Source: Alistipes sp.
Lineage (GTDB): Bacteria > Bacteroidota > Bacteroidia > Bacteroidales > Rikenellaceae
Length of the DNA stretch: 64,000 nucleotides
Assembly (NCBI GenBank): GCA_017936685.1
Contig: JAGBFA010000007.1
Coordinates: forward strand, 1-64,000
Direction of reading: 5' to 3'
The notes beneath the pieces were generated by a model. That model had not been told where the DNA came from and made no database searches. It was given only the letters and a program-made list of their open reading frames with translations. Numbering within the stretch: the first letter of the stretch is position 1; every line of letters begins with the position of its first letter. Made by a program: the position numbers and the translations under genes. This document shows positions 441-57,174 of the stretch, piece by piece.

Positions 441-563
441 TTTTTCGTCAAAAGGCGTTAGTAGCGGTGCCGACATGAAATTGGCGCGGATAGGCTGTAC
501 TAAACGTACTGCCTATTCGCGCCAATGATTGAGGTGACGCTAATGACGACTTTTCACGAAAAA
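441..563. repeat. Stop-codon-abutting palindromic element, copy A
   Basis: An imperfect palindrome with outer arms TTTTTCGTCAAAAGGCGTTAG at the left and, read in reverse complement from the right, TTTTTCGTGAAAAG. The inner stem ATTGGCGCGGATAGGC (480-495) pairs with GCCTATTCGCGCCAAT (511-526) around a loop containing GTAC...GTAC. The only non-Watson-Crick pair in that stem is a G.T seven pairs from the loop. The right end at 563 touches the stop codon of the GH57 gene with no gap. Copy H at 57052 is nearly identical. Confidence 0.8.
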
Positions 564-1745
564 TCAGCGTGCTTTCGACAACTCTATCTCAAAATCAGCC
601 AACACGTTCATGTAGTTGATAAACGCCTCGTAGGCCGAACCGTAAGGATTGAAATAAGAGTGTACGTCGCCGTCAGAGAACCACTTGGTGGCCATGTAAT
701 AGAAGTGATCCGAGGTCTGCATGAAATGCCATACGAACTCGAAATCCTTGTTCTTCAATGCCTTGACCTTAGGCGCAAGGGCATAGAGCTTCTCGAAGGC
801 TTCGTTCTGCAACTCGTTGCCGAGCCATGCCGTCACGTCGCGCTCCTCGTCGGCCCACGACATGGCATGCGGGCAGTGCAGCACGGCTACGGGCTGTGCC
901 TTCTTAGCCGCCTCGCTCACCGTGGCGAACTCGATCTCGCCCGTGGAGAGCATGGCCGAAGGCAGTGCCTTCATAAAGTCGAATATGCCAGTCGAGGCTT
1001 TCTGATGCTCGCCGAATGTCTCGTAGTCCATGAAGAGGTTGACCACGTCGCCGTTCTCCTTGGCCACCCAGCCGGCGAACTTGTCGGCCGTCAGAGGATA
1101 CTCGCCCCAGCCCTCGTTGGAGAAGCGGAAAGCGATATCGTCGGAGAGCTTGTAGTTGCGCAGCAGCAGGCGCAGCTTGTTGTCCGTGGCGTCGGTATAG
1201 ACGAAGTTGGGCGACTTCCAGCCCAATACATGCTTTGCGCCCTCGGCCAGCATGGTCTTGAATCCCATCTTCGACACGGCCTCGCCGATCGCGTCGGAGT
1301 AGATCAGCTCCGTGTTGCGGAATGCCGTGGGCTTGCAGCCGAACTCCTGCTTGATCATGGCCGCATGCAGTTTCACCTGCTCGGCGAACTCCTTGTCCGA
1401 GCGCAACGATGCCAGCGAATGAGAATAGGTCTCGGCAAGAAACTCCACGCAACCCGTCTCGGCCAGAGCCTTGAACGACTCCAACACCTCCGGAGCGTAG
1501 GCCTTGAACTGCTCGACGGCAGTGCCAGTAACGGAGAACGAGCAGCGGAACTTGCCCTTGTTCTCCTTGATGAGCTTCAACAGCAGCGCGTTCATCGGCA
1601 GATAGCACTGACGTGCCACCTTCTGCATGATGGCGCGGTTGGTAAAGTCGTCGAGGTAGTTATGATCCTTGCCCATGTTGAAGAATCGGTAGACCTTCAA
1701 ACGCCAAGGCTGATGTACCTGAAAATAGAAGCAAACTGTCTTCAT
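564..1745 (-). CDS. Glycoside hydrolase family 57 alpha-amylase-like enzyme
   Basis: A 393-residue protein without signal peptide, so probably cytoplasmic, acting on alpha-glucans such as glycogen. It opens with the GH57 'HQP' motif (residues 11-13, FQVHQPWRL). The motif FRNTELIYSD carries the candidate catalytic nucleophile near Glu146, and NLFMDYETFGEH carries the candidate acid near Asp240. It is the last gene of a minus-strand alpha-glucan block and starts 15 bp after the GT4 gene stops. This GH57, GT4 and debranching-enzyme order is common in Bacteroidales. The stop codon is immediately followed by palindromic element A. Family is confident; hydrolase versus glucanotransferase activity cannot be told from sequence. 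Confidence 0.88.
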   Translation of the reverse strand: MKTVCFYFQVHQPWRLKVYRFFNMGKDHNYLDDFTNRAIMQKVARQCYLPMNALLLKLIKENKGKFRCSFSVTGTAVEQFKAYAPEVLESFKALAETGCVEFLAETYSHSLASLRSDKEFAEQVKLHAAMIKQEFGCKPTAFRNTELIYSDAIGEAVSKMGFKTMLAEGAKHVLGWKSPNFVYTDATDNKLRLLLRNYKLSDDIAFRFSNEGWGEYPLTADKFAGWVAKENGDVVNLFMDYETFGEHQKASTGIFDFMKALPSAMLSTGEIEFATVSEAAKKAQPVAVLHCPHAMSWADEERDVTAWLGNELQNEAFEKLYALAPKVKALKNKDFEFVWHFMQTSDHFYYMATKWFSDGDVHSYFNPYGSAYEAFINYMNVLADFEIELSKAR

Positions 1746-1760
1746 ATATTTTGTGTTTTA

Positions 1761-3083
1761 TTATTTCTTTTCGTTGCACTTTTCGATTGCCTGCTCGTAG
1801 ACCCGTTTGATCTTCGCGGCGGCATTGTTCCATTTGAGTCCCGTAACCTCCTTCAAGCCTCTCGACGAGAACATCTTGGCAAGGGCGGGATAGGTAATCA
1901 GACCGTATATGGCATCGGCCATGGCATCTACGTCCCAGTAGTCGACCTTAACGGCATAGTCCAGCACCTCGGCCACGCCGCTCTGCTTGGAGATGATCAC
2001 AGGCACGTTTGAGCGCATGGCCTCCAACGGCGATATGCCGAACGGCTCGGATACCGAGGGCATGACATAGACGTCCGAGAGCTGGAACATTTTCTGCACG
2101 TCGTCGCCGCGCAGGAAGCCCGTGAAATGGAAGCGGTCGGCGATACCCAGAGCTGCCACACGGCGTATCACGTGGTTCATCATATCGCCCGAACCGGCCA
2201 TGACGAAACGCACGTTAGGCACGCGTTTGAGCACCTTGGCAGCCGCCTCGACGAAGTAGTCGGGACCCTTCTGGAAGGTGATGCGGCCCAGGAATGTGAC
2301 GATCTTGTCGTCGACACCGCGCTCGGGCAGCTCCATCTCCTTCTCGGCGAAACGCACGGCATTGTGCACGGTCACCACCTTCTCCGGCTCGACACCGTAG
2401 CGGTTGATGACGATGTTGCGCGTCAGGTTCGACACGGCGATGACCATGTCGGCGGCGTGCATGCCGGCACGCTCTATGGCGTATGTCTGCGTGTTGATGT
2501 TCTCGCCGCTGCGGTCGAACTCCGTGGCGTGCATGTGCACCACTAACGGCTTGCCCGACACGCGCTTGGCTGCGATACCGGCGAAGTAGGTGAGCCAGTC
2601 GTGCGCATGTATCACGTCGAACTGTCCCTCCAAATCCTTGGCCACCTGTGCCGCGACTATGGCATAGCGCGCCACCTCCTCCATCAGATTGGCACCGTAT
2701 TTTCCCGAGAACGTATAACGCTGCGTCCACACGTCACCGGGCACCTCCCACGAACGGCGACCCGTGCGCAGATACTCCTCGCGGTATGTCTCGTAGTCCT
2801 CGGGCGAGAGATAAGGCACCATATTCGAGTCGATATGGATAAACGACATCTTGCTGATGATATCGTCGGCACCCGCGGCCACATCACCCTTGTAGAGAGC
2901 TTCCACATCGCTTGCATTGACGACCTTCACGAATCGCTGGTCCTCGTCGCCCGAAGCCTTGGGCATGACGAAGATCACCTCGACATCGTTGCGAGCCAAA
3001 CCTCTCGTCATACCGTAGCAGGCCGTACCCAGTCCGCCGGCGATATGGGGAGGGAACTCCCAGCCGAACATTAAGACTCTCAT
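1761..3083 (-). CDS. Glycosyltransferase (GT4/GT5-like), probable glycogen synthesis
   Basis: A 440-residue GT-B fold glycosyltransferase. The N-terminus MRVLMFGWEFPPHIAGGLG has the glycine-rich acceptor-side motif of starch/glycogen synthase-like enzymes, and the C-terminal half has the nucleotide-sugar motif SVSEPFGISPLEAM (about residues 342-355) with the paired glutamates of retaining GT-B enzymes. It has no signal peptide. It lies between the debranching enzyme (61 bp upstream) and the GH57 gene (15 bp downstream), which suggests a role in alpha-glucan elongation. The donor (ADP-glucose or UDP-glucose) cannot be assigned from sequence. A different sugar acceptor is possible. Confidence 0.82.
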   Translation of the reverse strand: MRVLMFGWEFPPHIAGGLGTACYGMTRGLARNDVEVIFVMPKASGDEDQRFVKVVNASDVEALYKGDVAAGADDIISKMSFIHIDSNMVPYLSPEDYETYREEYLRTGRRSWEVPGDVWTQRYTFSGKYGANLMEEVARYAIVAAQVAKDLEGQFDVIHAHDWLTYFAGIAAKRVSGKPLVVHMHATEFDRSGENINTQTYAIERAGMHAADMVIAVSNLTRNIVINRYGVEPEKVVTVHNAVRFAEKEMELPERGVDDKIVTFLGRITFQKGPDYFVEAAAKVLKRVPNVRFVMAGSGDMMNHVIRRVAALGIADRFHFTGFLRGDDVQKMFQLSDVYVMPSVSEPFGISPLEAMRSNVPVIISKQSGVAEVLDYAVKVDYWDVDAMADAIYGLITYPALAKMFSSRGLKEVTGLKWNNAAAKIKRVYEQAIEKCNEKK

Positions 3084-3144
3084 AATCAGTAAAAAGTTAG
3101 TTTATTATTTATAGTTTTGTGTTTCGATTCTATCTCGCCGCAGA

Positions 3145-9694: not shown

Positions 9695-9939
9695 CCTTTT
9701 TAAAATTATTTAATATCATTTTTCGACAATCGCTCCGCTACGGCTCTCTCGACGGTGTGCGGCAGGCTAAAATTTAATCTTTCCGTAACATAGCCCACCC
9801 CGACGACCAACAAAAGATATGCAAAAACCGGCACCCGCAGCCGACAACAAGAACAATGGCTAAACCTGTCGCGACAACCCCGCCCGTCACCCCGAGCAGT
9901 GTGTTTTGCACGCGCACGGGAGTCTCCGGACACATTTCT
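9695..9939. other. Spacer without a supported gene
   Basis: AT-rich up to about 9720, then GC-rich. A 61-codon minus-strand frame (9774-9959) has one hydrophobic stretch (VVATGLAIVLVVGCGC), but its start lies inside a repeat module and it has no recognisable start signal. It may be a relic of a small membrane protein. Nothing else is seen. Confidence 0.5.
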
Positions 9940-10614
9940 GTCACTCCGAGGGAGGGCATAGCCCGACCGTGGGAGTCTCGCGGTCGGGAGCGTATTTGCC
10001 GCGCAGGTGTTTGCCGACCAAAAGAGAGATTCTCACGTCGCGATTTGCAATCGCATAACCTATATCGACCACAGAGCGACGGCTTACGCCGTTATACAAT
10101 TCTGACCCTCCCCAAACCCCTCCCTCGGGAGGGAAAACCAATGTCAACCACAAAGCGACGGCTTGCGCCGTTATACAATTCTGACCCTCCCCTAAATCCC
10201 CTCCTCGGAGGGGACTTGGGTCGCGCGATTTATCGCGCTCCATGTGGGGCGTGGCAGGCTAAGTTACGCGTCCCGGGTGGGGCATTGGCAGGTTCTTGTC
10301 ATTCTGAACGTCAGTGAAGAATCTGGTTGGGGAAGACAAAACCGTCAGACTGTCACTCCGAGGAGCCGCAGGCGACGTGGAAGTCTCGCGGTCGGGAGCA
10401 CAGTTTGTCAAACAAAAGAGATTCTCACGTCGGACGTTCCGTCCTCCTCAGAATGACAGAACGGGCATGTCATGTTGAGCGCAGCGAAACATCTGGTTGG
10501 GAAAGATTAGGCTTGTCTTCTTCGCACATCGTCCACAACCAGATTCTTCGTTGCACTACGTTTCACTCAGAATGACAAGACGATGGAAATAGTCAACAAA
10601 GCACTATGCGCCAA
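9940..10614. repeat. Interspersed repeat block R2
   Basis: Three kinds of module are stacked here. First, a CACTCCGAGG/GGGAGTCTC arm with its facing GAGATTCTCACGTCGCG arm (about 9940-10050). Second, two direct copies of 'GCGACGGCTT(A/G)CGCCGTTATACAATTCTGACCCTCCCC' (about 10077 and 10155) running into 'CGCGCGATTTATCGCGCTCCATGTGGGGCGTGGCAGGCT'. Third, further arms and GAAGAATCTGG modules (about 10296-10580) ending in the linker before element B. No gene. Confidence 0.8.
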
Positions 10615-10737
10615 TTTTTCGTCAAAAGGCGTTAGTTACAAGCCGCACGTGAAAAATCCGCAGATGGGCTGTACTCGGCGTACTGCCCATTTGCGGATTC
10701 GAACGAGGCGCAGGAAATGACGCCTTTTCACGAAAAA
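10615..10737. repeat. Stop-codon-abutting palindromic element, copy B
   Basis: Outer arms TTTTTCGTCAAAAGGCGTTAG and (facing) TTTTTCGTGAAAAGGCGTCAT. The inner stem AATCCGCAGATGGGC pairs with GCCCATTTGCGGATT around GTACTCGGCGTAC. Compared with copy A, almost every inner-stem base has changed on both sides, so pairing is kept, including the G.T at pair seven. The right end at 10737 touches the TAA stop of the glutamine synthetase gene with no gap. Confidence 0.82.
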
Positions 10738-12912
10738 TTACCGTAGGAAGAGGAGCTCGCGATACTTAGGCAGCGGCCATAACTGATCGTCGACAATCTC
10801 TTCGAGCTTATCGATGTGAGTGCGAATGTCGTCGAGATAGATGGCGACGGTGTCGTGATAGGCAATGGCCTTGGCGCGTTCATCGGAAAGACGGTTGGCT
10901 ACCTTGCGGGCATCGATCATCTCGCCGCACAGGGCTTGTATGGCAGCGGTATGGGTCTGTATGCGCTTGATCAGCTCTATGTCGGAGGTGGCGGGAATGC
11001 CTAACTCTTTCATTTTGTAGGCCTTGTCGAGAAGCATGCCCTCGTATTTGGAGGCGATGGGCAGAATGTGGTTCATGGCCAAATCGCCCAGCACGCGCGC
11101 CTCGATCTGAATCTTCTTGGTGTAGGTCTCCCACTTGACCTCGGTGCGCGCCTCGACCTCGACACGGTTGTAGACACCCATGCGCTCGAACATCTCGATG
11201 GTGGCCTTGTCGAGATAGCGGTCGAAGATCAGCGGCGTAGAGGTCTGGCAGTCGAGTCCGCGCGCCGCCGCCTCGGTCTTCCACTCCTCGGAGTAGCCGT
11301 TGCCGTCGAAGTGTATGGGGCGGCTCTGCTTGATCATGCGCTTCAACACCTCGTATATGGCGCGCTCCTTACGCTTGCCCGACTCGATGAGGGCATCGAC
11401 CTCGCGCTTGAAGTCGGTGAGCTGCTCGGCCACTATCGTATTGAGTACGATCATGGCCTCGGCGCAGTTGTCCGACGAGCCGACGGCGCGGAACTCGAAG
11501 CGGTTGCCGGTGAAGGCGAAGGGCGAGGTGCGGTTGCGGTCGGTGTTGTCAAGGAAGATGCTCGGTATGTGCTGCACGCCGCTCATCTTGAACACGTTTT
11601 TGGCATCGAAGCGGATCGTGTCGTCGCTTCGGCTGTGCTCCAACTTGTCGAGCACGGTCGAGATCTGTGTGCCGAGGAATGTCGATATGATGGCCGGAGG
11701 TGCCTCGTTGGCACCCAGACGATGGGCGTTGGTGGCACTCATGATGGAGGCTTTGAGCAATCCGTTGTGACGATGCACGGCCGATATGACGTTCACCAGG
11801 AAGGTGATGAATTGCAGGTTCTCGGCCGGAGTGCGGCCGGGGCCGATAAGGTTCACGCCCGTGTCGGTGCCGATCGACCAGTTGCAGTGCTTGCCCGAGC
11901 CGTTGATACCCTTGAAGGGCTTCTCGTGCAGCAGCACGCGGAAGTTGTGGCGGCGCGCCACCTTATCCATAATGGTCATCAGCAGCTGGTTGTGGTCGTT
12001 GGCCAGATTGGTCTGCTCGTAGACCGGAGCCAGCTCGAACTGATTGGGTGCCACCTCGTTGTGGCGTGTCTTCAACGGAATACCCAGCATCAGGCACTCA
12101 TACTCCAAATCGCGCATGAACGACATCACGCGCTCGGGTATGGCTCCGAAATAGTGATCTTCCAGCTGCTGGTTCTTGGCCGACTCGTGTCCCATCAGGG
12201 TACGTCCCGTCAGCATCAGATCGGGGCGCACGGCCCACAGACTCTCGTCGACGAGGAAATACTCCTGCTCCCAGCCCAGATACGAGAAGACCCTCTCGAC
12301 CGACTTGTCGAAATAGCGGCACACCTCCGTTGCGGCGCGGTCGATGGCCGAGATCGAGCGCAGCAGAGGCATCTTGTAGTCGAGAGCCTCACCCGTATAG
12401 GAGATGAATATGGTGGGGATACAGAGCGTCGTGCCGACGATGAATGCCGGAGAGGCGGGGTCCCAGGCCGAGTAGCCGCGCGCCTCGAACGTGTTGCGTA
12501 TGCCGCCGCTCGGGAACGACGATGCGTCCGGCTCCTGCTGCACGAGCAGCTTGCCCGAGAACTCCTCCAACACGCCGCCGGCCGAATCCGGCTCCGAGAA
12601 GGAGTCGTGCTTCTCGGCTGTACCGCCGGTCAGGGGCTGAAACCAGTGGGTATAGTGGTCGGCACCGTTGTCGAGTGCCCACTGGCGCATGCCGGCCGCA
12701 ATGCTGTCGGCGATATCGAGCGTCAGCGGAGTGCCGTTCTCCATGGTGTCGATCAGGGCATCGTAGGTCTGTTTGTTGAGATATTTACGCATCACACCGC
12801 GGCCGAACACCTTTGCCCCGAAGTAGTCCGAGGGCTGTTTGCCCGGTGCCTTCACGTCGACCGCCTTGTGAGAGATGGCGGCATCGACCATTTTAAAACG
12901 CAACAATGACAT
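10738..12912 (-). CDS. glnN: Type III glutamine synthetase (GlnN)
   Basis: Forms glutamine from glutamate, ammonia and ATP in the cytoplasm. I place the start at ATG 12912 (MSLLRFKMVDAAIS), giving 724 residues, the usual GlnN length. An upstream extension to 13068 would run through promoter-like AT-rich sequence and adds a Phe/Tyr/Lys-rich stretch unlike the family. Type III hallmarks include FQPLTGGTAEKHDSF near the N-terminus, YFLVDE, LKTRHNEVAPNQFELAP, and HEKPFKGINGSGKHCNWS. The gene stands alone, with palindromic element B abutting its stop. Nitrogen-responsive control is likely for the family, but no operator is visible. Confidence 0.95.
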   Translation of the reverse strand: MSLLRFKMVDAAISHKAVDVKAPGKQPSDYFGAKVFGRGVMRKYLNKQTYDALIDTMENGTPLTLDIADSIAAGMRQWALDNGADHYTHWFQPLTGGTAEKHDSFSEPDSAGGVLEEFSGKLLVQQEPDASSFPSGGIRNTFEARGYSAWDPASPAFIVGTTLCIPTIFISYTGEALDYKMPLLRSISAIDRAATEVCRYFDKSVERVFSYLGWEQEYFLVDESLWAVRPDLMLTGRTLMGHESAKNQQLEDHYFGAIPERVMSFMRDLEYECLMLGIPLKTRHNEVAPNQFELAPVYEQTNLANDHNQLLMTIMDKVARRHNFRVLLHEKPFKGINGSGKHCNWSIGTDTGVNLIGPGRTPAENLQFITFLVNVISAVHRHNGLLKASIMSATNAHRLGANEAPPAIISTFLGTQISTVLDKLEHSRSDDTIRFDAKNVFKMSGVQHIPSIFLDNTDRNRTSPFAFTGNRFEFRAVGSSDNCAEAMIVLNTIVAEQLTDFKREVDALIESGKRKERAIYEVLKRMIKQSRPIHFDGNGYSEEWKTEAAARGLDCQTSTPLIFDRYLDKATIEMFERMGVYNRVEVEARTEVKWETYTKKIQIEARVLGDLAMNHILPIASKYEGMLLDKAYKMKELGIPATSDIELIKRIQTHTAAIQALCGEMIDARKVANRLSDERAKAIAYHDTVAIYLDDIRTHIDKLEEIVDDQLWPLPKYRELLFLR

Positions 12913-12963
12913 AATTCGATTCGAGTTTAATAAATTATAGATTTTATCAAAAATCCAACGATG

Positions 12964-12971
12964 CAAAGGTA
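12964..12971 (-). promoter_or_regulatory. -7 box upstream of glnN
   Basis: Minus-strand TACCTTTG, followed by GCAT as at the glycogen promoter, 52 bp above the chosen glnN start. No clear -33 TTTG lies at the right distance, so an activator may be needed, or the site may be fortuitous. It argues for the shorter glnN start, because it would lie inside the longer reading frame. Confidence 0.45.
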
Positions 12972-13229
12972 TGAACAAATATCTGTCAGTTTTCCGAAAA
13001 CAGTCATATTTTTTCAACACTTTATCAAATATCACCGTTGATTTTCCGCAATCATAGTAAAAACACATGATGATTTTCGCAAAACCGTGTTAAAAAATCG
13101 CCACTTCCTACAAATTACCGATTTTGCAAAATCGAATATTTCGCAGGAAAATAGGAATATTTTTCAACTATAACACCACAAACACACATATCAAAAGATC
13201 GGACACTGTTAATTTTATAACAATTTTAC

Positions 13230-20034: not shown

Positions 20035-20364
20035 CTTTGAGGAGCATGATACGCACTCCTAAAAATGACAAGACGGCAGACATGTCGCGCACAGATTTCT
20101 CGCTTGCACTCGAAATGACACGACGAGCGATTTACCTACCCTATTGTCACTCCGAGGAGCCGCAGGCGACGTGGGAGTCTCTTCACACACATCTGTCACT
20201 CCGAGGTCGGGCACATGCCCGACCGTGGGAGTCTCGCGGTCGAGAGTACCGTTTGTCCGCCCAATACACCCATCGACCAAAACAGAGATTCTCACGTCGC
20301 GTGCATAGCACGCTCCTCAGAATGACAGGACAATGGAAATAGTCTCCAAAGAATTATGCGCCAA
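20035..20364. repeat. Interspersed repeat block R3
   Basis: Two CACTCCGAGG...GGGAGTCTC arms (about 20145-20180 and 20193-20236) and one facing GAGATTCTCACGTCGCG...CTCCTCAGAATGACAG arm (about 20285-20330), then the linker GGAAATAGTCTCCAAAGAATTATGCGCCAA. Shorter degenerate pieces lie at 20035-20130. No gene. Confidence 0.8.
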
Positions 20365-20574
20365 TTTTTCGTCAAAAGGCGTTAGTTACAACTTTTTCGA
20401 TAAGCCGGACGAGCAAAGCGAAGTTTACTTCGGCTTTGCCGCGGCGAGAAAAAGTGCATGCAATGAAGCCGCACGTGAAAAATCCGCAGATGGGCTGTAC
20501 TCGACGTACTGCCCATTTGCGGATTTGAACGAGGCGCAGGAAATGACGCCTTTTCACGAAAAATTCACGAAAAA
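20365..20574. repeat. Palindromic element copy C, interrupted by a 76-bp nested palindrome
   Basis: The sequence is nearly that of copy B (inner stem AATCCGCAGATGGGC / GCCCATTTGCGGATT). Between GTTAGTTACA and AGCCGCACG, however, it carries 76 extra bases (20391-20466). The insert begins ACTTTTTC, has GAAAAAGT near its right side, and folds on its own through GCAAAGCGAAGT / ACTTCGGCTTTGC. The right tail is duplicated (TTCACGAAAAA twice). The last base, 20574, touches the TAA stop of degQ. Confidence 0.8.
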
Positions 20575-22071
20575 TTATAGTATGGTATAACTCGACGCAC
20601 GCCCATTAGGATAAATACCGTCGATGGAAGTGACCTTGTCGGTGAGACGATCCAAATCGGCAACGGAGTAGACGGGCTTGTCGTTGATGTGGGTGATGAT
20701 GAAACCCTGCTTGACGCGCGCACGTTCGAGAAGACCGCCGCGCTTGACGGATACGACCTGCACGCCGCCGCGAATATCAAGTTCGTTGCAGAGCTTGGAA
20801 GAGACATCGGCGAACTTACCGCCCAGCGCGGCTGTGACATCGACCTCCTCGCGCGAGAGCAGCTCGGCACGTCCGGCCTTGTTGCGCAACTTGGCGGTGA
20901 AAGTCTTTGTCGTGTCGCCGCGACGCACTTTGAGGGTGATCTCGTCGCCCGGACGACGCTTGCCGATCTGTTCGAGGAATACGGCCGAGGTGTTGACCTC
21001 CACGCCGTCGACGCTCAGTATGACATCGCCCTTGCGCAGACCGGCCTCGGAAGCGGCACCCTCCTCGGTTACGGTGGCCACGTAGATGCCGCCTATGCGG
21101 TCGATACCCGTCTGCTCACCCATCTGATCGATGAAGCTCTGGTCGATGGCGCGGAACGATATGCCCAAAACGGCACGCTGCACAACGCCCGACTCTTTAA
21201 GGTCTACGACCACCTTGCGCACGATAGTCTCGGGCACGGCGAACGAGTAGCCCACATAGCTGCCCGTCGAGGTCTTGATGATGGTGTTGATACCCACCAG
21301 CTCGCCGCGCGTATTGACCAGTGCGCCGCCCGAGTTGCCGGGGTTTACCGCGGCATCGGTCTGTATGAACGACTCGATGCTGAACTCGTTGGGCAATGCT
21401 CCCAGTCTGCGCGCCTTGGCCGATACGATGCCGGCCGTGATGGTCGACTGCAACTCCATGGGATAGCCTATGGCCAGCACCCACTCGCCCAGACGCAGAT
21501 CGTCCGAGCTGCCGAAAGGCAGTGTGGGCAGACCCTCGGCCTCGACCTTGATCAGGGCCACGTCGGTGGCGGGATCGGCACCGATGATGCGGGCATCGAA
21601 CTCGCGGCCGTCGTTGAGCTTCACGCGCAGCTTGGTGGCCGAGTCGACCACATGGTTGTTGGTGACGATGTAGCCGTCCTCGGATATGATCACGCCCGAA
21701 CCTCCGGCACGCGCCTCACGCATATAGGGCTGACCGCCCGAGGGATCCTGCGGGAAGCCGAAAAATTCGAGGAACGGATCGCTGCGGCGGCTCATCTCCA
21801 CCTGCTGAATGGCCTCGATGTTGACAACGGCCTTCACGGCGTTCTCGGCCGCGTATGTCAGATCGGGATAGTCGGCCGAGACCACCGACGAGGCGAATGC
21901 CACGTCGACGGCCGGATTCTGGCGAAATATATCGTTGTCGGCCATAGCGGTGCTCTGCGTCGGAGCCTCGACGTTATCATTGTCGAGCGCACGCATGACG
22001 GCGATAGTCGCAGCACTCGTCACGACGGACAGCGCGGCGACACCCAAAACAAAAAATGCCTTCTTTTTCAT
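20575..22071 (-). CDS. degQ: DegQ/HtrA (Do-family) periplasmic serine protease
   Basis: A 498-residue envelope protease and chaperone. The N-terminus MKKKAFFVLGVAALSVVTSAA is a signal peptide or anchor. The trypsin-like domain has the full triad: His140 (IVTNNHVVD), Asp170 (DPATDVALI) and Ser247 (DAAVNPGNSGGAL). Two PDZ domains follow (about 290-380 and 400-490), with the C-terminal segment VQVVSVKRGGLLERARVKQGF. The gene is monocistronic and converges on lrgB across repeat block R3. Element C abuts the stop codon, and the last residues (ASSYTIL) are encoded right up to it. Confidence 0.95.
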   Translation of the reverse strand: MKKKAFFVLGVAALSVVTSAATIAVMRALDNDNVEAPTQSTAMADNDIFRQNPAVDVAFASSVVSADYPDLTYAAENAVKAVVNIEAIQQVEMSRRSDPFLEFFGFPQDPSGGQPYMREARAGGSGVIISEDGYIVTNNHVVDSATKLRVKLNDGREFDARIIGADPATDVALIKVEAEGLPTLPFGSSDDLRLGEWVLAIGYPMELQSTITAGIVSAKARRLGALPNEFSIESFIQTDAAVNPGNSGGALVNTRGELVGINTIIKTSTGSYVGYSFAVPETIVRKVVVDLKESGVVQRAVLGISFRAIDQSFIDQMGEQTGIDRIGGIYVATVTEEGAASEAGLRKGDVILSVDGVEVNTSAVFLEQIGKRRPGDEITLKVRRGDTTKTFTAKLRNKAGRAELLSREEVDVTAALGGKFADVSSKLCNELDIRGGVQVVSVKRGGLLERARVKQGFIITHINDKPVYSVADLDRLTDKVTSIDGIYPNGRASSYTIL

Positions 22072-35560: not shown

Positions 35561-35639
35561 AACCGATGATTATTGTACAATATACGAATAAGTTATGACA
35601 ATACCAAATTTATTCGAGTATTGCCCGGCTGAAGTTTGT

Positions 35640-36288
35640 CAACCACAATAGAGATTCTCACGTCGGACGTGCCGTCCTCCTCAGAATGAAAAACAAACGT
35701 CGACCACAGAGCTACGGCTTGCGCCGTTATATAATTTTGACCCCACCCCAACTGCTGCGACAGGCGAGTGCAATCGCTTGCGAATTGCCGAGCCGCCAAA
35801 GCAGTCACGACGCAAAAAGTCGCGCAGCGACGCGGCGTACCCCCTCCCTCGGGAGGGGCTTTTGTCGCGCGATTGATCGCGCTCCATGTGGGGCGTGGCA
35901 GGCTCCGCTACGCGTCCCGTAGTGGGGCGTTGGTAGGTTCTTGCTATTCTGAACGTAGTGAACCAACACCAAGTCGAGAGCAGAAGAAATTTATTTCTTA
36001 TGCCGAGACGCGAAGGAGGAAGACCGCGGTCAAGAATCTGGTTGGGGAAGACATGGCCACCCATCTGTCACTCCGAGGGAGGGCATTGCCCGACCGTGGG
36101 AGTCTCGCAGGCGGGAGCGCAATTGCCGGCCAAAAGAGAGATTCTCACGTCGCGGCCGATGACCGCTCCTCAGAATGACAGGGTGAGCATATAGACCTCG
36201 CACATATTCCACAACCGGATTCTTCGCTACGTTACACTCCGCTCAGAATGACACGCAACAAAAAAGTTTCCAAAGAATCATGCGCAAC
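35640..36288. repeat. Interspersed repeat block R4
   Basis: Contains a degenerate copy of the third module (about 35700-35935: ACGGCTTGCGCCGTTATATAATTTTGACCCC..., then GTCGCGCGATTGATCGCGCTCCATGTGGGGCGTGGCAGGCT, as in block R2), a CACTCCGAGGGAGGGCATTGCCCGACCGTGGGAGTCTC arm (about 36069-36107) and its facing arm (about 36137-36180), then CGGATTCTTCG and CAGAATGACA pieces leading into element D. The spacer interrupts the module-3 copy with an extra 60-70 bp. No gene. Confidence 0.78.
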
Positions 36289-36408
36289 TTTTTCGTCAAA
36301 AGTGGTATTATACAACGCGACAACAGAGCGAGACGATGGGCTGTACTGGCGTACTGCCCATTGTCGAGCGACAAGGAGCGGCAGTAGAATGCCGCTTTTC
36401 ACGGAAAA
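36289..36408. repeat. Palindromic element copy D
   Basis: Outer arms TTTTTCGTCAAAAGTGG and (facing) TTTTCCGTGAAAAGCGG. The inner stem GACGATGGGC pairs with GCCCATTGTC around GTACTGGCGTAC, again with G.T at pair seven. This copy is not directly at a stop codon; it is the outer member of a tandem pair with copy E. Confidence 0.78.
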
Positions 36409-36431: not shown

Positions 36432-36563
36432 TTTTTCGTCAAAAGTGGTATTATACAACGCGACGACAGAGCGAGACGATGGGCTGTACTGGCGTACTGC
36501 CCATTGTCGAGCGACGAGGAGCGGCAGTAGAATGCCGCTTTTCACGAAAAAGTCACGGAAAAG
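36432..36563. repeat. Palindromic element copy E, with tail repeats reaching into the rSAM stop
   Basis: Almost identical to copy D and 23 bp from it. Its right tail TCACGAAAAAG is followed by two further TCACGGAAAAG units, and the TGA stop of the radical SAM gene (36564-36566) lies inside the last of these. The final residues of that protein (Ser-Phe-Pro) are thus encoded by element-like sequence. Confidence 0.78.
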
Positions 36564-37640
36564 TCACGGAAAAGATCGGTAGTGACAATGCATCAAATGC
36601 CCATCATTGTCCCGCAAATGCATGCCGCCGCCGCGACAAAACTGCCACGCCTTGCAGTCGGCACACTCGCCGGTATGCGCCCACTCGCGATTGCGGAACG
36701 GGAGAAAACGGTTTTGCCATACGTCCCAGAAGTCGTCGTGATAGATATTGCCCTGGGTGTAGTTGGCGCGAACGCTCGTGCAGCCCGATATATCGCCATT
36801 GACACGGATAGAGGCGACGGAGACACCGGCGGCACACATGTAGAAGTGGTCGCGCACCTCGGCCTCGTAACCGCCCAAGAAGCCCTCGCAGGCATAGCAG
36901 AGATCGATTTTGCCCTCGCGGCGCGTGCGGCGGATAAACTCCAACACGCGGACGAACTCCTCCTCGCTGAGCAGCAGGCCGCTGTCGGCAGCGGCACGGC
37001 CGGCAGGAAAGATAGTGAATATGCGCCAATGGCGGACACCTCGATCGATAAGCAACTGCTTGAACTCCTCCAAACGATCGACCATCGACGGCGTTACGCA
37101 CGTTATGACATCGTATGCAAGATCGGGGTACTCCAAGATGTGATCCACAGCCTCCATGGCGCGGGCATAGCTGTGGGGATTGCGGCGTATGTAGGTGTGC
37201 GAAGGCTCGAATCCGTCGATGCTGACCGATATCGAACGCAGCCCCGCAGCCACGAGCGACGCAAGCCGTTCGCGCGTGAGTGCCAGGCCGTTGGTGACCA
37301 TGCCCCACATATATCCGCGTCGCGTGACCTCCTCGCCGGCGCGTTCCAGATCGTCGCGCACGAGCACCTCGCCGCCCGAGAATATGACGAGCACTTCTTG
37401 CGGGGTGACATGCGGCGTGATCTGCTCATCGAGCACGCGCAGGAAATCGTCGAGCGGCATATCCTGCTCGGCAACATCTGCCCGGCAGTCGCTGCCGCAA
37501 TGACGGCACGCCAGATTGCACCTCAACGTGCACTCCCAAAAGAGCGTCGACAGGCGGTGACGGGCGACGGTGTCGTCGTAGAGTTGTGAAAAGAGTTTCA
37601 GTGCGAGTCTCTTGCGAAGACCCAATCGACGGCCGCTCAC
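36564..37640 (-). CDS. Radical SAM/SPASM enzyme of an rSAM/lipoprotein pair
   Basis: A 358-residue radical SAM enzyme. The [4Fe-4S]/SAM motif CxxxCxxC is Cys41, Cys45, Cys48 (CNLACRHC), followed by FSGGEVLVRDD. The C-terminal SPASM-like region has many cysteines (YMCAAG, GDISGCTS, GECADCKAWQFCRGGG, LMHCHY), enough for auxiliary clusters. Such enzymes usually modify peptides. Its start codon overlaps the stop of a small lipoprotein gene by 4 bp, the arrangement of the radical-SAM-associated lipoprotein systems known in Bacteroidales. The modification and purpose are unknown. The last residues come from palindromic element E. Confidence 0.9.
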   Translation of the reverse strand: MSGRRLGLRKRLALKLFSQLYDDTVARHRLSTLFWECTLRCNLACRHCGSDCRADVAEQDMPLDDFLRVLDEQITPHVTPQEVLVIFSGGEVLVRDDLERAGEEVTRRGYMWGMVTNGLALTRERLASLVAAGLRSISVSIDGFEPSHTYIRRNPHSYARAMEAVDHILEYPDLAYDVITCVTPSMVDRLEEFKQLLIDRGVRHWRIFTIFPAGRAAADSGLLLSEEEFVRVLEFIRRTRREGKIDLCYACEGFLGGYEAEVRDHFYMCAAGVSVASIRVNGDISGCTSVRANYTQGNIYHDDFWDVWQNRFLPFRNREWAHTGECADCKAWQFCRGGGMHLRDNDGHLMHCHYRSFP

Positions 37641-46079: not shown

Positions 46080-46465
46080 TCAGCACCGTGCGGAGTAAAA
46101 CATCTGGTCGGGGAAGATAAGGCTGCCCGCCCTGTCACTCCGAGGAGCCAAAGGCGACGTGGGAGTCTCGCGGTTTAAACTGTCACTCCGAGGGAGGGCA
46201 TAGCCCGACCGTGGGAGTCTCACCGACAGGAGTGCAGTTGCCCGTCCAATGATGCACTTGCCTACCAAAACAGAGATTCTCACGTCGCGATTTACAATCG
46301 CTCCTCAGAATGACAGGATAGTGGAAATGATCGCGCACAGATTTCTCGCTTGCGCTCGAAATGACACGGCGACGTTTTGATATTCCCAAACCGGATTCTT
46401 CACTTCGCGATGCTTCGTTCAGAATGACAAAACAGTGGAAATAGTCTCCAAAGCACCACAACCCC
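46080..46465. repeat. Interspersed repeat block R5
   Basis: Two forward arms (CTGTCACTCCGAGGAGCCAAAGGCGACGTGGGAGTCTC at 46132-46169, and a GAGGGAGGGCATAGCCCGACC variant at about 46180-46222), one facing arm (about 46272-46316), and degenerate GATTCTTCACTTCGCGATGC...CAGAATGACA pieces, ending in the GGAAATAGTCTCCAAAG linker. No gene. Confidence 0.8.
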
Positions 46466-46586
46466 TTTTTCATCAAAATGCCGCAGATGCGACTCTCCGA
46501 CAGAGCAAGACGATGGGCTGTACTGAGTGTACTGCCCATTGGTAAGCGACGAGGAGAGGAAGCAGGTGCGGTATTTTCATGGAAAA
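46466..46586. repeat. Palindromic element copy F
   Basis: The most degenerate copy: arms TTTTTCATCAAAATGCCGC and (facing) TTTTCCATGAAAATACCGC, so both arms carry matching changes. The inner stem CGATGGGC/GCCCATTG surrounds GTACTGAGTGTAC and keeps the G.T at pair seven. It is the outer member of a tandem pair with copy G. Confidence 0.75.
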
Positions 46587-46608: not shown

Positions 46609-46730
46609 TTTTTCGTCAAAAGCGGTATTATACAACGCAAACGAAAAATGCCCGGACAGGTTGTACTGATCGTACTACCTGTTCGGGCAGTTGAGTGCGC
46701 GGCAGTAGAATGCCGCTTTTCACGTAAATA
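46609..46730. repeat. Palindromic element copy G
   Basis: The inner stem TGCCCGGACAGGT pairs with ACCTGTTCGGGCA around GTACTGATCGTAC, a stem sequence unlike all other copies yet fully paired, with the G.T again at pair seven. The outer right arm reads CTTTTCACGTAAATA, and its last base touches the TAA stop of the zinc-ribbon gene at 46731. Confidence 0.8.
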
Positions 46731-47492
46731 TTACTCTTCCGACTTGTCCGCCACCAATATACGTCCGCAATACTCGCAGACGATGAGCTTCTTTCCCTGA
46801 CGAATATCCACCTGACGCTGAGGAGGTATGCGATTGAAGCAGCCGCCGCATGCGTCGCGGGTAACGGTGACTACGGCAAGGCCGTTGTGCACATTGCTGC
46901 GGATACGGTTGTAAGCTGCCAAAAGACGCTCGTCGATGGGAGACTTGGCCTTTGCGGCCTTGGCCTCCAAGTCGGCCACCTGCTGTGCGGTCTCGGCCTC
47001 GATCGACTCCAACTCCTCCTTCTTGGCGTTGTAGTCCACGGTGCGCTCCTCGACCTGGGTCTGAGTCTGCTCGACCTGCGCCTTCTTGGCCTTGATGCCT
47101 GCGGCATACTCCTTCAAACGCTTCTCGGCCAGCTCGATCTCCAACTCCTGATATTCGATCTCCTTGGAGATGGCATCGTACTCGCGGTTGTTGCGTACAT
47201 TGTTCTGCTGCTCCTTGTAGTTGCCGATCATGATCTTGGCCTGATCCACCTCGCGCTTACGCTGACGAGTGAGCGTATTGAGCTCCTCGATCTCGGCATT
47301 GATGTTCTCGATACGAGTGTTCAAGCCGGCAAGTTCGTCTTCAAGATCCTGAACCTCCAACGGAAGCTCGCCCTTCACCTTGTTGATCTCATCGATCTGA
47401 GAATCGATCTTCTGCAACTCGTAAAGAGCCAGTATCTTCTCCTGCATCGAGTAGTCAACGTCGCTTGTCTTCTTCTGTGCCATATATGTCAT
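46731..47492 (-). CDS. Coiled-coil protein with C-terminal C4 zinc ribbon
   Basis: A 253-residue (250 if started at the second ATG, MAQKKTS) cytoplasmic protein. Residues about 20-190 form a long coiled coil with heptad Leu/Ile/Val and many Glu and Lys. The C-terminus has two Cys pairs, CGGCFNR and CEYCGRIL, making a zf-RING_7-type C4 zinc ribbon. Family members are widespread but poorly understood, possibly nucleic-acid binding. It is the last gene of a run of five with 3-12 bp spacing. Palindromic element G abuts its stop. Confidence 0.9.
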   Translation of the reverse strand: MTYMAQKKTSDVDYSMQEKILALYELQKIDSQIDEINKVKGELPLEVQDLEDELAGLNTRIENINAEIEELNTLTRQRKREVDQAKIMIGNYKEQQNNVRNNREYDAISKEIEYQELEIELAEKRLKEYAAGIKAKKAQVEQTQTQVEERTVDYNAKKEELESIEAETAQQVADLEAKAAKAKSPIDERLLAAYNRIRSNVHNGLAVVTVTRDACGGCFNRIPPQRQVDIRQGKKLIVCEYCGRILVADKSEE

Positions 47493-54066: not shown

Positions 54067-54132
54067 AACTCCCTACTGTATAACTGAATATAACCCAGCA
54101 TCGGCCACGCGTGAAATATCGCGGCCGACAAG

Positions 54133-54164
54133 TTTGCATATTACCCTGCAAATATATAAATTTG
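54133..54164 (+). promoter_or_regulatory. Promoter of the small membrane-protein pair, overlapping a trkA -7 box
   Basis: Plus strand TTTG (54133-54136), 20 bp, TAAATTTG (54157-54164). Directly beside it on the minus strand is TATATTTG (54149-54156), a good -7 box for trkA but without a clear -33. The two -7 boxes are back to back, as between rsmE and the peptidase gene. Confidence 0.68.
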
Positions 54165-54226
54165 CGGTGAATTTACGAAAGTAAAATCCGATTTTTAGAG
54201 TTCGTATCCGAGTAAAAAGTTAGAGT

Positions 54227-54478
54227 ATGCCGAGCTGGTTGACCGTATTCCTGATAGCACTTGCCGCCGTGGCCTTCTTCACGCTGGCCATGTCGCTGAC
54301 ACTCATATTCAAAGGCCATAACATCGACTCCGAGATAGCCACCAACAAGAACATGCAGCGATTGGGCATAAAGTGCGCCGTGCAGGAGTCGCGCGAAGAT
54401 ACGGGCACGGACAACTGTCACGGCGTGGGCTGCACGGGCAACTGCTCGGCCTGCGACATAGAACAACCGGCAAAATGA
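54227..54478 (+). CDS. Small single-span membrane protein with Cys-rich tail
   Basis: An 83-residue protein: one hydrophobic helix (about 4-28, WLTVFLIALAAVAFFTLAMSL), then a polar region, then a Cys cluster CHGVGCTGNCSACD (about 64-77) with spacing C-x4-C-x3-C-x2-C that could hold a metal. I do not recognise the family; such short Cys-tailed membrane proteins do occur in Bacteroidales. Its stop overlaps the start of the next gene (ATGA), so the two are coupled. The Cys tail probably faces the cytoplasm if the short N-terminus is outside, which is inference. Confidence 0.78.
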   Translation: MPSWLTVFLIALAAVAFFTLAMSLTLIFKGHNIDSEIATNKNMQRLGIKCAVQESREDTGTDNCHGVGCTGNCSACDIEQPAK

Positions 54479-54954
54479 TGAACACCGACAACCACAACCC
54501 CAAGCAGCCGAGCGGCCGCACCGCCGAGTGGCTCTGCCGCAACTGCAACTCTCTCAACGCAGCGGAGGCTCCGGCGTGCGTCTACTGCCATGCCGACCGC
54601 CCCGAGGAGCAGACGGTCGAGAAACAGCCGGCGACCGATGAGCAGGCTGCCGAGGGAGAGCAACAGCCGATTATCCGCCGCGAGTCGTACTCCAACCCCG
54701 CACCCGCCGCGCCGGCGAAATACACCTTCCGCGAGAGCGTGCTCATAACCTCGGCCGACATCATACTATTCGTAGGTCTGTTCTGCGCGTTCGCCGCCTT
54801 GATAGCTCCGGCTTTCATCGACGGCGACATACCCAACCTGCATCTCTACTCCATCGTCGGAGCCATAGCACTCTTTGCGTGGGGCATGATCTCGTGGGCA
54901 CTGCTGCGATGCGTAGCCGACATCTCACGCCGTCTGCGCCACAACGACAAGTAG
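54475..54954 (+). CDS. Membrane protein with N-terminal RanBP2-type zinc finger
   Basis: A 159-residue protein. Residues about 18-40 (WLCRNCNSLNAAEAPACVYC) have the C-x2-C-x10-C-x2-C spacing of RanBP2-type zinc fingers. A disordered Gln/Glu/Pro linker follows (about 45-80), then two hydrophobic helices (about 90-112 and 124-145), ending in a basic tail. The zinc finger would be cytoplasmic. It is coupled to the upstream Cys-tailed membrane protein, so both may work together. Function unknown. Confidence 0.78.
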   Translation: MMNTDNHNPKQPSGRTAEWLCRNCNSLNAAEAPACVYCHADRPEEQTVEKQPATDEQAAEGEQQPIIRRESYSNPAPAAPAKYTFRESVLITSADIILFVGLFCAFAALIAPAFIDGDIPNLHLYSIVGAIALFAWGMISWALLRCVADISRRLRHNDK

Positions 54955-54959
54955 CCAAA

Positions 54960-55360
54960 AGATTTCTCGATTACGCTCGAAATTACAATCCTCAACATGT
55001 CGTCGGTTCACTCCACTACGTTACGCTCAGAATGACAGGACGCATATTGCTGTCACTCCGAGGAGCCGCAGGCGACGTGGGAGTCTCGCCGTCGGGAGCA
55101 CGGTTTGACATATGGGAGTCTATCGACCGAAAAGAGCGTTTGTCGTCCTCAAACAGAGATTCTCACGTCGCGATTTTTAATCGCTCCTCAGAATGACAAG
55201 CCCTCCGTGTCATTCTGAACGAAGTGTAACGCAGTGAAGAATCTGGGGACGACAAGGCATATTGACCACGCACGTCTTCCCCAACCAGATTCTTCGTTTC
55301 ATTTCATTCCACTCAGAATGACACAATAGCGAAAATACACTCCAACGAGTTATACCCACT
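54960..55360. repeat. Interspersed repeat block R6, with linker but no palindrome
   Basis: A CACTCCGAGGAGCCGCAGGCGACGTGGGAGTCTC arm (about 55051-55087) and facing GAGATTCTCACGTCGCG...CTCCTCAGAATGACA arm (about 55155-55198), then TGTCATTCTGAACG...GAAGAATCTGG and its facing CCAGATTCTTCG...CAGAATGACA. At 55317-55354 the usual linker is recognisable (AATGACACAATAGCGAAAATAC...CCAACGAGTTAT), but the TTTTTCGTCAAAAGG palindrome that should follow is missing before the Sel1 gene stop. Confidence 0.78.
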
Positions 55361-55387
55361 TATTCGCTATCGGCACGCCTGCCCAAA

Positions 55388-56293
55388 CTACTCTTGCGAC
55401 TTTTTCAGCCAATATTCCGCCTGCGAATCATCTTTTTCAACACCCCAGCCGTTTTGATAGCAGAGTCCTAAATTATGTTGCGCATTACTGTATCCTTGTT
55501 CCGCTGCCTTGCGAAACCAATATACAGCCTGAGAGTCATTCTGCTCAACACCTTGACCTTGCGCATAACAAATTCCTAAATTACATTGTGCTATATCATA
55601 TCCTTGTTCAGCTGCCTTGTGAAACCAATATACTGCCTGCGAGTAATTCTGCTCAACACCTTGACCTTGCGCATAACAAGTTCCTAAATTACATTGTGCA
55701 TCACGTTGTCCTTGTTCCGCAGCCTTACGATACCAATATACAGCCTGAGAGTAATTCTGTTCGACACCTCGACCGTTTTTATAGCAGTAGCCTAAATTAT
55801 ATTGCGCATAACTGTCGCCTTGTTCCGCAGCCTTGCGATACCAATATACTGCCTGCGAGTAATTCTGCTCAACACCTCGACCGTTTTGATAGCAGAGTCC
55901 TAAATTATATTGAGCATAACTGTCGCCTTGTTCAGCGGCTTTACGGTACCAATATACTGCCTGAGAACAATCCTGTTCAACACCTCTGCCGCTCTCATAG
56001 TAGAATCCTAAATTAAATTGCGCAGCACTGTTGCCTTGTTCCGCTGCCTTGCGATACCAATATACCGCCTGCGGATAATCTTGTTGCCGATCATAACTTT
56101 GGCCAATATTGTATTGACATGCAGGGTTATTACCTCCTGCAAGGTCATTGGCTTTTTTGAAGCAAGCGATGGCATTGGTATACTCTTTCGACGAGAAATA
56201 ATTCATGCCCGTGTCAAAATACTCCTGTCCCGTTTGGGCTTGGGCAGAGAACAGGCACATGAGTGCGAATAACGAGAATAAAAGTTTTTTCAT
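55388..56293 (-). CDS. Secreted Sel1-repeat protein
   Basis: A 301-residue protein started at ATG 56293 (MKKLLFSLFALMCLFSAQAQ, a clean signal peptide); the longer frame upstream is not supported. A first TPR-like unit (about 22-75) precedes six near-identical 36-residue Sel1 repeats (76-291) with the consensus AVYWYRKAAEQG...AQ.NLG.CY..G.GVEQ..SQ, and a short cap AEYWLKKSQE. It should fold as an alpha-solenoid for protein binding in the periplasm or at the surface. The near-identity of repeats suggests recent expansion. It is lower in GC than neighbours and has no co-directional neighbour. Confidence 0.92.
   Translation of the reverse strand: MKKLLFSLFALMCLFSAQAQTGQEYFDTGMNYFSSKEYTNAIACFKKANDLAGGNNPACQYNIGQSYDRQQDYPQAVYWYRKAAEQGNSAAQFNLGFYYESGRGVEQDCSQAVYWYRKAAEQGDSYAQYNLGLCYQNGRGVEQNYSQAVYWYRKAAEQGDSYAQYNLGYCYKNGRGVEQNYSQAVYWYRKAAEQGQRDAQCNLGTCYAQGQGVEQNYSQAVYWFHKAAEQGYDIAQCNLGICYAQGQGVEQNDSQAVYWFRKAAEQGYSNAQHNLGLCYQNGWGVEKDDSQAEYWLKKSQE
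55421..56068 (-). repeat. 108-bp tandem repeat, six units, within the Sel1 gene
   Basis: Six in-frame 108-bp units encode residues 76-291. Nucleotide identity is high across most units, with differences clustered in the variable loop codons, so copy number could change by slippage or recombination without breaking the frame. Confidence 0.88.
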
Positions 56294-56699
56294 CGTACTG
56301 TATGTTAGTTGTTTATAAATAAGAAGCACGGACAAATCCGATATCCGTCTCTGTGGCCTTGGACTGCCATACAATAAGATATAGATAAATGCCCGTGCCG
56401 GAAACAGCACGAGCATCAACTTTAATTCCTTATTGCATGCCGAAATTGTCCAAGTTTCAGAGACAAGAAGAAAAGCCGATGCGCTTTGATATGTTTGTGC
56501 CGTCGCTTTCATTGCGTCGCGGCGAGGCGATCCTCACAAGGATCGTGCATGTTTCATATTATATATTCTCCATAGGCATGTCGATTTTTCTATTTGCAAA
56601 TATACGTCAAATATACGAGAAATCCTACTTGAAACCTTACGCCGATAACAAAAGATATGTAACCGTGTCACCACTGCCGGAATAATCGTGCAAGTAGAT
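56294..56699. other. Upstream region of the Sel1 gene, no gene seen
   Basis: AT-rich parts alternate with short GC-rich stretches. Minus-strand TATATTTG boxes occur twice near 56594-56615, but they are about 300 bp from the Sel1 start, so a long leader or another promoter is implied. A 98-codon plus-strand frame (56389-56685) has no family likeness. Confidence 0.45.
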
Positions 56700-57051
56700 G
56701 CGGTGCTATCACAGGCGAGATTCTCACGTCGCGCGCCGCACTCCTCAGAATGACAGGGTGGATCTGTCGTCCTCGCACATAGTCCACAACCAGATTCTTC
56801 GCTATCGCTCAGAATGACAGGACGCATATTGCTGTCACTCCGAGGGAGGGCATATGCCCGACCGTGGGAGTCTCGCCGTCGGGAGTGCGGCTGTCTTTTC
56901 AGAAATGTCCTTGTCGGCCATAAAATGAGATTCTCACGTCGCGGTCTATGACCGCTCCTCAGAATGACAGAGTGGGCTTGTCTCGCACAGATTCTTCGCT
57001 TACGCTCAGAATGACAGGGTGGAAATAGCCTCCCAAGCACCACTACCACAT
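56700..57051. repeat. Interspersed repeat block R7
   Basis: A facing arm fragment (56719-56757), an AGATTCTTCGC...CAGAATGACAGG module, a full CACTCCGAGGGAGGGCATATGCCCGACCGTGGGAGTCTC arm (about 56833-56873), its facing arm (about 56927-56971), another CAGAATGACA module and the linker GGAAATAGCCTCCCAAGCACC. No gene. Confidence 0.8.
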
Positions 57052-57174
57052 TTTTTCGTCAAAAGGCGTTAGTAGCGGTGCCGACATGAAATTGGCGCGG
57101 ATAGGCTGTACTAAGCGTACTGCCTATTCGCGCCAATGATTGAGGTGACGCTAATGATGCCTTTTCACGGAAAA
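57052..57174. repeat. Palindromic element copy H
   Basis: Nearly identical to copy A although 56 kb away: the same inner stem ATTGGCGCGGATAGGC / GCCTATTCGCGCCAAT, and a loop with one base changed (TAAGC for TAAAC). The right tail CTTTTCACGGAAAA is separated from the galactokinase TAG stop (57178-57180) by only GAG. Confidence 0.82.

Follow-up and report, generated by a model that had tools for sequence, protein, structure and literature searches.

Hairpins directly behind stop codons in Alistipes: a possible family of structure-recognised mobile palindromes

How does one folded DNA element come to stand, to the nucleotide, behind the stop codons of genes that have nothing to do with each other? 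The question is raised by a stretch of 64,000 nucleotides (nt) of Alistipes sp. (assembly GCA_017936685.1, contig JAGBFA010000007.1, positions 1 to 64,000, forward strand), here called the window. A first-pass annotation, made from the letters alone, had described eight imperfect palindromes of about 120 base pairs (bp) in it, several of them abutting a stop codon, and had proposed that a folded single strand is under selection, either as RNA or as a hairpin used by a transposase. In this paper we find that the palindromes belong to a larger family than was noted at first, that one folded shape is preserved by paired changes over the genus, and that it is one particular end of the element, the R end, which lies at a stop codon in a little over half of the units, or at some other boundary of a gene. 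The explanation that we tentatively favour is that the copies are non-autonomous, structure-recognised mobile hairpins that are targeted to the ends of open reading frames (ORFs) by an enzyme acting in trans; their mobility is something that we infer, and we regard this reading as close to an even call, if anything slightly below it.

A hairpin family at gene ends

The 14-nt terminus TTTTTCGTSAAAAG is found 135 times in forward and 145 times in reverse orientation in the 2.28-Mb genome to which the window belongs (the source genome), while its reversed control is found 0 times. We built a covariance model (R1) from the eight window copies and scored 150 of 661 first-look candidates, which yielded 150 listed matches; another 14 copies were found by script in the fetched DNA. 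The source genome thus has at least 164 copies of about 121 bp each, a lower bound, as arrays may miss members. They lie on both strands and over many contigs. Three pairs of sites on different contigs have identical flanks (C2:148450/C6:176951, C2:172215/C6:153186 and C13:34594/C16:22989) and may be duplicated segments or assembly redundancy of the draft genome, so that a few counts include duplicated segments.

The 164 copies form 116 units, namely 78 single copies, 28 pairs and 10 triples. Using a home-made gene caller, the R end of 61 of the 116 units was located within 12 nt of a stop codon: in 25 units the gap is 0 or the stop falls within the element, and the gap measures 1-3 nt in 18 and 4-12 nt in another 18. 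In the rest, the stop is at 13-40 nt (7 units) or further away (14), the R end faces a gene start (26) or there is no called gene (8). The L end behaves differently, with 0 of 150 copies within 12 nt of a gene, 1 within 40 nt and 6 without a called gene. In the first count, which comprised 112 units, the gap was exactly 0 in 20, and in 5 the stop was a TGA within the terminus. In 23 of these 112 the element is separated from the gene by partial terminus repeats of about 11 nt, and by eye the called stop of at least five units is the TGA of such a repeat. At C4:48385, in what we take by eye to be an adenylate-kinase-like frame, and in five other units, the gene seemingly ends on a TGA inside the terminus (TTTTTCG-TGA).

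The same placement is seen in congeners, where we examined 81 copies from 20 species, the best-scoring among the matches listed and not a random sample. Here the stop is at 0 in 32 copies, at 1-3 nt in 13, at 4-12 nt in 10, inside the element in 5 and beyond in 1, and no stop was found for 20. For the far end the same test gave 3 at 0, 2 inside, 4 beyond 12 nt and 72 without a stop, and of 405 random positions only 3 were at 0-3 nt of a stop. The first-pass annotation had named a random distribution relative to stop codons as the outcome that would speak against it; the adjacency is instead one-sided, in the source genome and in congeners alike. Its link to gene 3' ends is therefore borne out as one-sided placement at the R end, although it has to be narrowed: adjacency to a stop holds for 66 of 112 units and not for the others, so not every copy is at a stop. 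Random insertion followed by selection alone would be expected to spread the distances over the 3' untranslated region, and the tight gaps in both data sets speak against it. One-sided trimming of the flank up to the stop may be a source of such gaps.

The covariance-model search that had been suggested was run over the genus, in genomes that are 63-99% complete and with at most 58 candidates scored per genome. The shape is present in 38 of 61 genomes (the source genome included), with 1 to at least 58 matches in each; the arm sequences of the congeners are different. The exact terminus is almost confined to the source genome: among 60 congeners, 4 have one match each and 56 have none (at most one per strand). 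The nearest relative of a copy lies in its own species in 61 of 85 cases, where 12% is expected from shuffles. Over the order, matches were found in 3 of 149 genomes: the source genome and, weakly, two of genus g29, whose matches have GTGATAA/TTCTGAC outer motifs in common by eye. Spread by phages or plasmids was considered and rejected: one congener copy had no match in either, and viral contigs gave 0 hits for the arm pattern and 2 for the own-terminus pattern. The closest named galactokinase records come from metagenome-assembled Alistipes genomes of water buffalo gut (80% identity).

Two further kinds of hairpin were noticed. In G202, a genome from another family of the order, hairpins with GTGATAA/TTCTGAC outer motifs are spaced about 149 nt apart on small contigs (L347-L349). 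In four genomes (G040, G054, G041 and G035; for example loci L221, L146, L224 and L217) there is a second type, with TTTTxGATT...AATCAAAAA ends, that likewise lies against stop codons and is found stacked together with the main type.

All eight palindromes of the window were found at the places first described. Six of the proposed ends were kept, while the two at 20574 and 36563 include a partial terminus repeat of 11-12 nt, so that the true ends are 20563 and 36551. The outer arm thought to be common to all is TTTTTCGTCAAAAG in seven of the eight copies; the copy at 46466 has TTTTTCATCAAAAT instead. The window features are as follows, where the strand of an element is that of the G.T pair, the neighbouring gene is on the opposite strand, and genes rest on gene calling and Pfam.

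441..563, plus strand: element copy 1, gap 0 to the stop at 564
564..566, minus strand: stop codon TGA of a GH57 gene (564-1745)
10615..10737, plus strand: element copy 2, gap 0 to the stop
10738..10740, minus strand: stop codon TAA of a type III glutamine synthetase gene (10738-13068)
20365..20563, plus strand: element copy 3, with a second, smaller palindrome inside its left arm (model match listed as 20435-20563)
about 20392-20454: the smaller palindrome in the left arm of copy 3, with TTTTTCG...CGAGAAAAA ends
20564..20574, plus strand: 11-nt partial terminus repeat TTCACGAAAAA between copy 3 and the stop
20575..20577, minus strand: stop codon TAA of a trypsin/PDZ protease gene (20575-22071)
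36289..36408, plus strand: element copy 4, distal in a tandem pair
36432..36551, plus strand: element copy 5, gene-proximal in this pair
36552..36563, plus strand: 12-nt partial terminus repeat between copy 5 and the stop
36564..36566, minus strand: stop codon TGA of a radical SAM/SPASM gene (36564-37640), the codon belonging to a further partial terminus repeat
46466..46586, plus strand: element copy 6, with variant ends, distal in a pair (outside the 150 scored candidates, found by script)
46609..46730, plus strand: element copy 7, gene-proximal in this pair
46731..46733, minus strand: stop codon TAA of a zinc-ribbon protein gene (46731-47492)
57052..57174, plus strand: element copy 8, gap 3 to the stop
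57178..57180, minus strand: stop codon TAG of a galactokinase gene (57178-58329)

At all six loci the element, together with any partial repeats, ends 0-3 nt from the stop (564, 10738, 20575, 36564, 46731 and 57178), and the neighbours are indeed unrelated, as each belongs to a different Pfam family (GH57, type III glutamine synthetase, trypsin/PDZ protease, radical SAM/SPASM, zinc ribbon and galactokinase). No match above the Rfam gathering score was found in the window, and one copy that was searched gave only scores far below the cut-off, mostly to microRNA precursors.

Fold, junctions and orthologous sites

The covariation that the first-pass annotation had seen in eight copies was examined in a genus set of 91 copies (88 distinct) from the source genome and 19 congeners, whose alignment was fitted to the model and thereby favours structure. 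In this set, standard pairs make up 95.5% of cells, compared with 36.6-47.7% when partners are slid by 1-3 columns; two-sided changes affect 717 cells, compared with 227 after shuffling; and the covariation score reaches 0.558, compared with 0.168. Absence of covariation, the other outcome named as speaking against the first-pass annotation, is not what these measures show. Inner-stem swaps with a matching partner, as had been described, occur at 21 of 40 predicted pairs among the eight copies and at 27 of 40 among the 91. For seven of the eight window strands tested, 0 of 200 shuffles folded as well, and for the eighth 1 of 200 did.

Certain mismatches stay constant even where the pairs next to them vary. 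The G opposite T is kept in 149 of the 150 listed copies of the source genome (A.T in one), and as a G.U pair it is invariant in 88 of 88 sequences of the genus set (20 species). A C.C mismatch at nucleotide 9 is kept in 132 of 139 copies of the source genome. The loop core GTAC-N-GTAC is present in all 150 listed copies. Selection on a folded single strand is thus supported both by covariation against slid and shuffled controls and by the fixed mismatches. In 139 of 142 copies the better fold is that of the strand antisense to the adjacent gene.

Between the GTAC words the loop is hypervariable: among 205 copy pairs with at most three differences outside the loop, 149 differ in it. In most listed copies this part reads T-N-R-N-Y. 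There are also mosaic copies (for example C5:110311 and C6:37063), in which the left inner arm derives from one subfamily and the right from another, the two being joined at the loop, with a broken inner stem.

The bases next to the element are informative with regard to how it is joined. In our recount, which used 143 of 164 source-genome copies (141 of 150 in the first test), the bases directly outside the two ends are complementary in 52 of 70 singles, compared with 26.4 when shuffled, and the second flank bases in 34 of 70, compared with 22.4. In arrays, the gene-proximal copy shows the same first-base pairing (27 of 36 vs 13.4), whereas later copies show no excess (5 of 37 vs 5.2); before the recount, the far flank of the last array copy was found to pair with the gene flank in 21 of 28 arrays, vs 11.8. 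The pattern of flank pairing is what one would expect if copies arrived again and again at a single point behind the stop. For congeners, where 66 of 81 copies were used, the first flank base is paired in 66 of 66 (47.0 when shuffled) and the second in 51 of 66 (47.2, with 67 of 2000 shuffles reaching this number). The complementary flanks may stem from a palindromic target or from the copying of a flank base. Direct duplicates of the flank are few, 2 nt in 8 of 75 singles and 3 nt in 1 of 75; inverted ones number 32 and 3.

Stop codons at gap 0 are TAA in 16 cases, TGA in 4 and TAG in none (n=20), compared with 120 TAA, 80 TAG and 71 TGA among called genes (Fisher p 0.002). On this count, the A of the stop acts as the outermost base of the element; either the target contributes it or a base of the element takes its place. 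Arrays have a moderate polarity: in the recount, the copy next to the gene has a more stable fold than the copy farthest from it in 28 of 38, which suggests that arrays are extended from the gene side. Odd types were commoner among distal copies (first count, 31 arrays).

It can also be asked whether the element brings its own stop codon. We read 29 of 45 glnN and 30 of 56 galK loci of the genus, and the gene end is the same with or without the element, which is present at 3 of the 29 and 2 of the 30. At these two genes the stop codon is therefore native and not supplied by the element. Some element-free ends have a terminator-like hairpin shortly downstream, while others continue into the following gene or lack such a hairpin. 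Behind glnN of G000 and of G054 there are different element types, both exactly behind the stop, which suggests independent arrivals. At the G054 locus a large inverted repeat with a T-run, which is probably the native terminator, is by eye still present downstream of the element.

Two close species, G017 and G051, are 85-93% identical in long shared blocks, and three orthologous sites were compared between them. At the first, the two species carry different element types behind a shared TAA. At the second, the element is the same but differs by a paired double change and in its loop, and the third has hardly changed, the difference being four additional bases ahead of the element. All three sites are filled in both genomes, and therefore positions are stable over these sites while sequences turn over.

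Proposed mobile hairpins and rival explanations

In the favoured reading, a structure-specific enzyme acting in trans would recognise the folded strand, with the mismatches serving as reading marks, and would attach each new copy right after the stop codon, pushing older ones outward, where they would decay. The outermost base pair would be formed with, or copied from, the last target base (often the A of TAA), and template switching or conversion between arms and copies may keep the arms complementary and homogenise copies within a species. The enzyme, the mobility, the strand, the finding of the stop and any 3'-end role are what we infer from sequence comparison. The elements could be a variant of mobile extragenic palindromes, and a new transposition class, which is possible, would rest on a hypothetical enzyme. 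Such a class, in its explicit form, would be single-strand hairpin transposition by an enzyme outside the tested families, steered to the end of translation or to DNA that transcription has opened (at a stop codon, the end of a terminator or the edge of a promoter), which joins at the last base of the stop and closes or extends the hairpin with that base, the arrays growing inward. We hold this explicit form to be possible but doubtful.

Several points weigh against mobile hairpins. The RAYT-like (Y1) transposase that the first-pass annotation had proposed to look for was sought with PF01797 (Y1_Tnp) and found in 0 of 61 genus genomes, with 5 of 14 controls matching. The DUF772 domain (PF05598), which we take to be the mark of the IS1182/IS1272-type transposase family, was likewise found in 0 of 61 (3 of 14 controls), and an integron integrase (TIGR02249) above the curated cut-off in 0 of 61, with weaker matches in all 61 and in all 14 controls. 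An IS91/Helitron-like Y2 profile matched 0 of 61 genomes and also 0 controls, and this result carries no weight either way. Neither an autonomous copy nor a parent transposon was recognised among the first 100 terminus places listed, no clean empty site was found and no insertion was caught. The three filled sites also fit long-lived positions with converting sequence. In G046, a copy stands behind a displaced gene tail that matches a gene with a similar element at its stop in G022, which therefore points to some spread by recombination of flanks. Two of five covariation measures did not stand out from shuffles, namely the pairs with two-sided change (27 vs 24.3, reached by 13 of 500 shuffles) and the pair types (79 vs 77.7, reached by 188 of 500), and the array polarity became weaker on recount, from 26 of 31 to 28 of 38. 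Finally, 46 of the 112 units are not stop-adjacent. By script, these comprise 11 in the context of a promoter -7 box (the motif that we assumed for sorting), 8 after a T-run, 7 behind another element, 1 at a tRNA end and 19 others, several of which by eye follow element remains, terminators or tRNA.

Three details of these searches can be added. The displaced tail in G046 (locus L047, 1624-1802) is a copy of about 20 nt of what we take to be a CoA-transferase-like gene; it lies some 176 nt past the true end of that gene and immediately ahead of the element. In C4:122500-128500, which has unpaired termini, no transposase was recognised among the ORFs read by eye, and no family search was made there. 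A mover that uses reverse transcription was rejected: RVT_1 is present in 21 of 61 genomes and is missing from G017, G035, G038, G044, G051, G056 and G059, each with 36 to at least 58 matches.

One alternative, which we find rather improbable, is that the copies are functional RNA elements at mRNA 3' ends (stabiliser, processing site or terminator), maintained by selection, spread by recombination and retained for their function. Position behind stops, covariation and the invariant G.U pair agree with it, and so does the distribution of terminators: with a crude finder, applied to 52 of the 81 congener copies, terminator-like sites were located downstream of elements in 6 of 52 within 200 nt and 1 of 52 within 60 nt, compared with 18 of 80 and 12 of 80 behind element-free gene ends. 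Yet it is the mRNA (gene-sense) strand that folds worse in 139 of 142 copies, with A.C where the other strand has G.T, and the copies read have no U-run after the hairpin. The 0-nt gap, stacks of up to three and copies near promoter-like boxes are not called for by an RNA role, the apparent native terminator persists behind the G054 glnN element, and most orthologues of glnN and galK manage without any element.

Palindromes could also do without a dedicated transposase, if template switching and gene conversion at replication both multiplied them and kept their arms paired, which we consider unlikely. Template switching can create or repair stems and make compensatory multi-base changes (PMC8794818), and the G017/G051 copies separated by a paired double change and a loop change, the mosaic copies and the hypervariable loop would agree with this reading. 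However, correction of one arm by the other should erase the G.T and C.C mismatches, and both are almost invariant; the exact placement behind stops of unrelated genes is left unexplained as well.

Quite unlikely, in our view, is stem-loop-replacing transposition, in which an incoming copy takes the place of a stem-loop already present, so that the flanks remain complementary and one element is exchanged for another at a given stop. This behaviour of IS1272 (IS1182 family) is the closest published one, with inverted-repeat targets, no target duplication, a stem-loop swap and tandem duplication of one end (PMC5678879). The different types at one stop in G017 and G051 and the gene-side partial terminus repeats (23 of 112 units) would agree with it. 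IS1272 differs in being 1.9 kb long with its own transposase, whereas the present elements have about 121 bp, no DUF772-type transposase was found in the genus (0 of 61 genomes), and they sit at a stop codon and not at any hairpin. Moreover, of 18 terminator-like hairpins at element-free stops none starts at 0-3 nt and 8 start 16-26 nt away, and the G054 element sits before an apparently intact native terminator.

Very improbable are elements of the Y1 (IS200/IS605-like) kind. Repetitive extragenic palindromes (REP/REPIN) with RAYT are high-copy palindromes of 20-40 bp that occur in tandem pairs and probably are recognised as single strands, and the present elements resemble them in all of this but length, as well as in conserved mismatches, strand asymmetry and the absence of target duplication (direct 2-nt repeats in 8 of 75 singles). 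They differ in having 121 bp, a conserved GTAC loop core, a precise abutment to the stop and, with positive controls, no Y1_Tnp in any of the 61 genomes. The attC sites of integrons, which are imperfect palindromes at gene ends with a folded antisense strand and a sequence-tolerant shape, share these features with the elements, but with integrase above the curated cut-off in 0 of 61 genomes, and with copies on both strands of many contigs, in the window behind unrelated genes and in no single cassette array, an attC-like origin can be nearly dismissed.

Significance and further repeats

Miniature inverted-repeat transposable elements (MITEs) are short, non-coding and multicopy, with inverted-repeat ends. 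The hairpins resemble them in all these respects and in a terminus of one species, but differ in being one covarying hairpin throughout, with no regular target duplication and no parent transposon recognised among the first 100 terminus places listed. A literature search, with most subscription papers outside its scope, gave no description of such an element or of a target choice at ORF ends.

If the elements are mobile, targeting to ORF ends would let a selfish repeat reach high copy number without breaking genes, and the enzyme, once found, would provide a structure-guided system of DNA integration. With constant mismatches right next to variable pairs, the elements are also a rich natural collection in which selection and template switching can be told apart as causes of covariation. 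A hairpin of at least 120 nt directly behind many stop codons is, in addition, relevant to the reading of transcript ends in Alistipes.

Other repeats accompany the hairpins. The smaller palindrome (~63 bp, TTTTTCG...CGAGAAAAA ends, followed by GTGCATG.AATG) is found in the left arm of some elements, in the source genome for example at window 20392-20454, C5:217782, C12:71181, C1:29635 and C10:254861, and the flanks of the window copy likewise end in complementary C/G. Behind the hairpins, further repeats (TGTCATTCTGA..., GAGATTCTCACGTCGCG..., TGTCACTCCGAGG...) form stereotyped arrays, in the window at 1-440, 9930-10600, 20085-20350, 35620-36260, 46130-46450, 54950-55350, 56680-57020 and 61560-61940. 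The stems of their small hairpins vary with matching partners, and the array order looks alike at several loci. At 55301-56140, repeats with a period of 108 nt lie within the minus-strand ORF 55388-56512, which encodes a repetitive protein.

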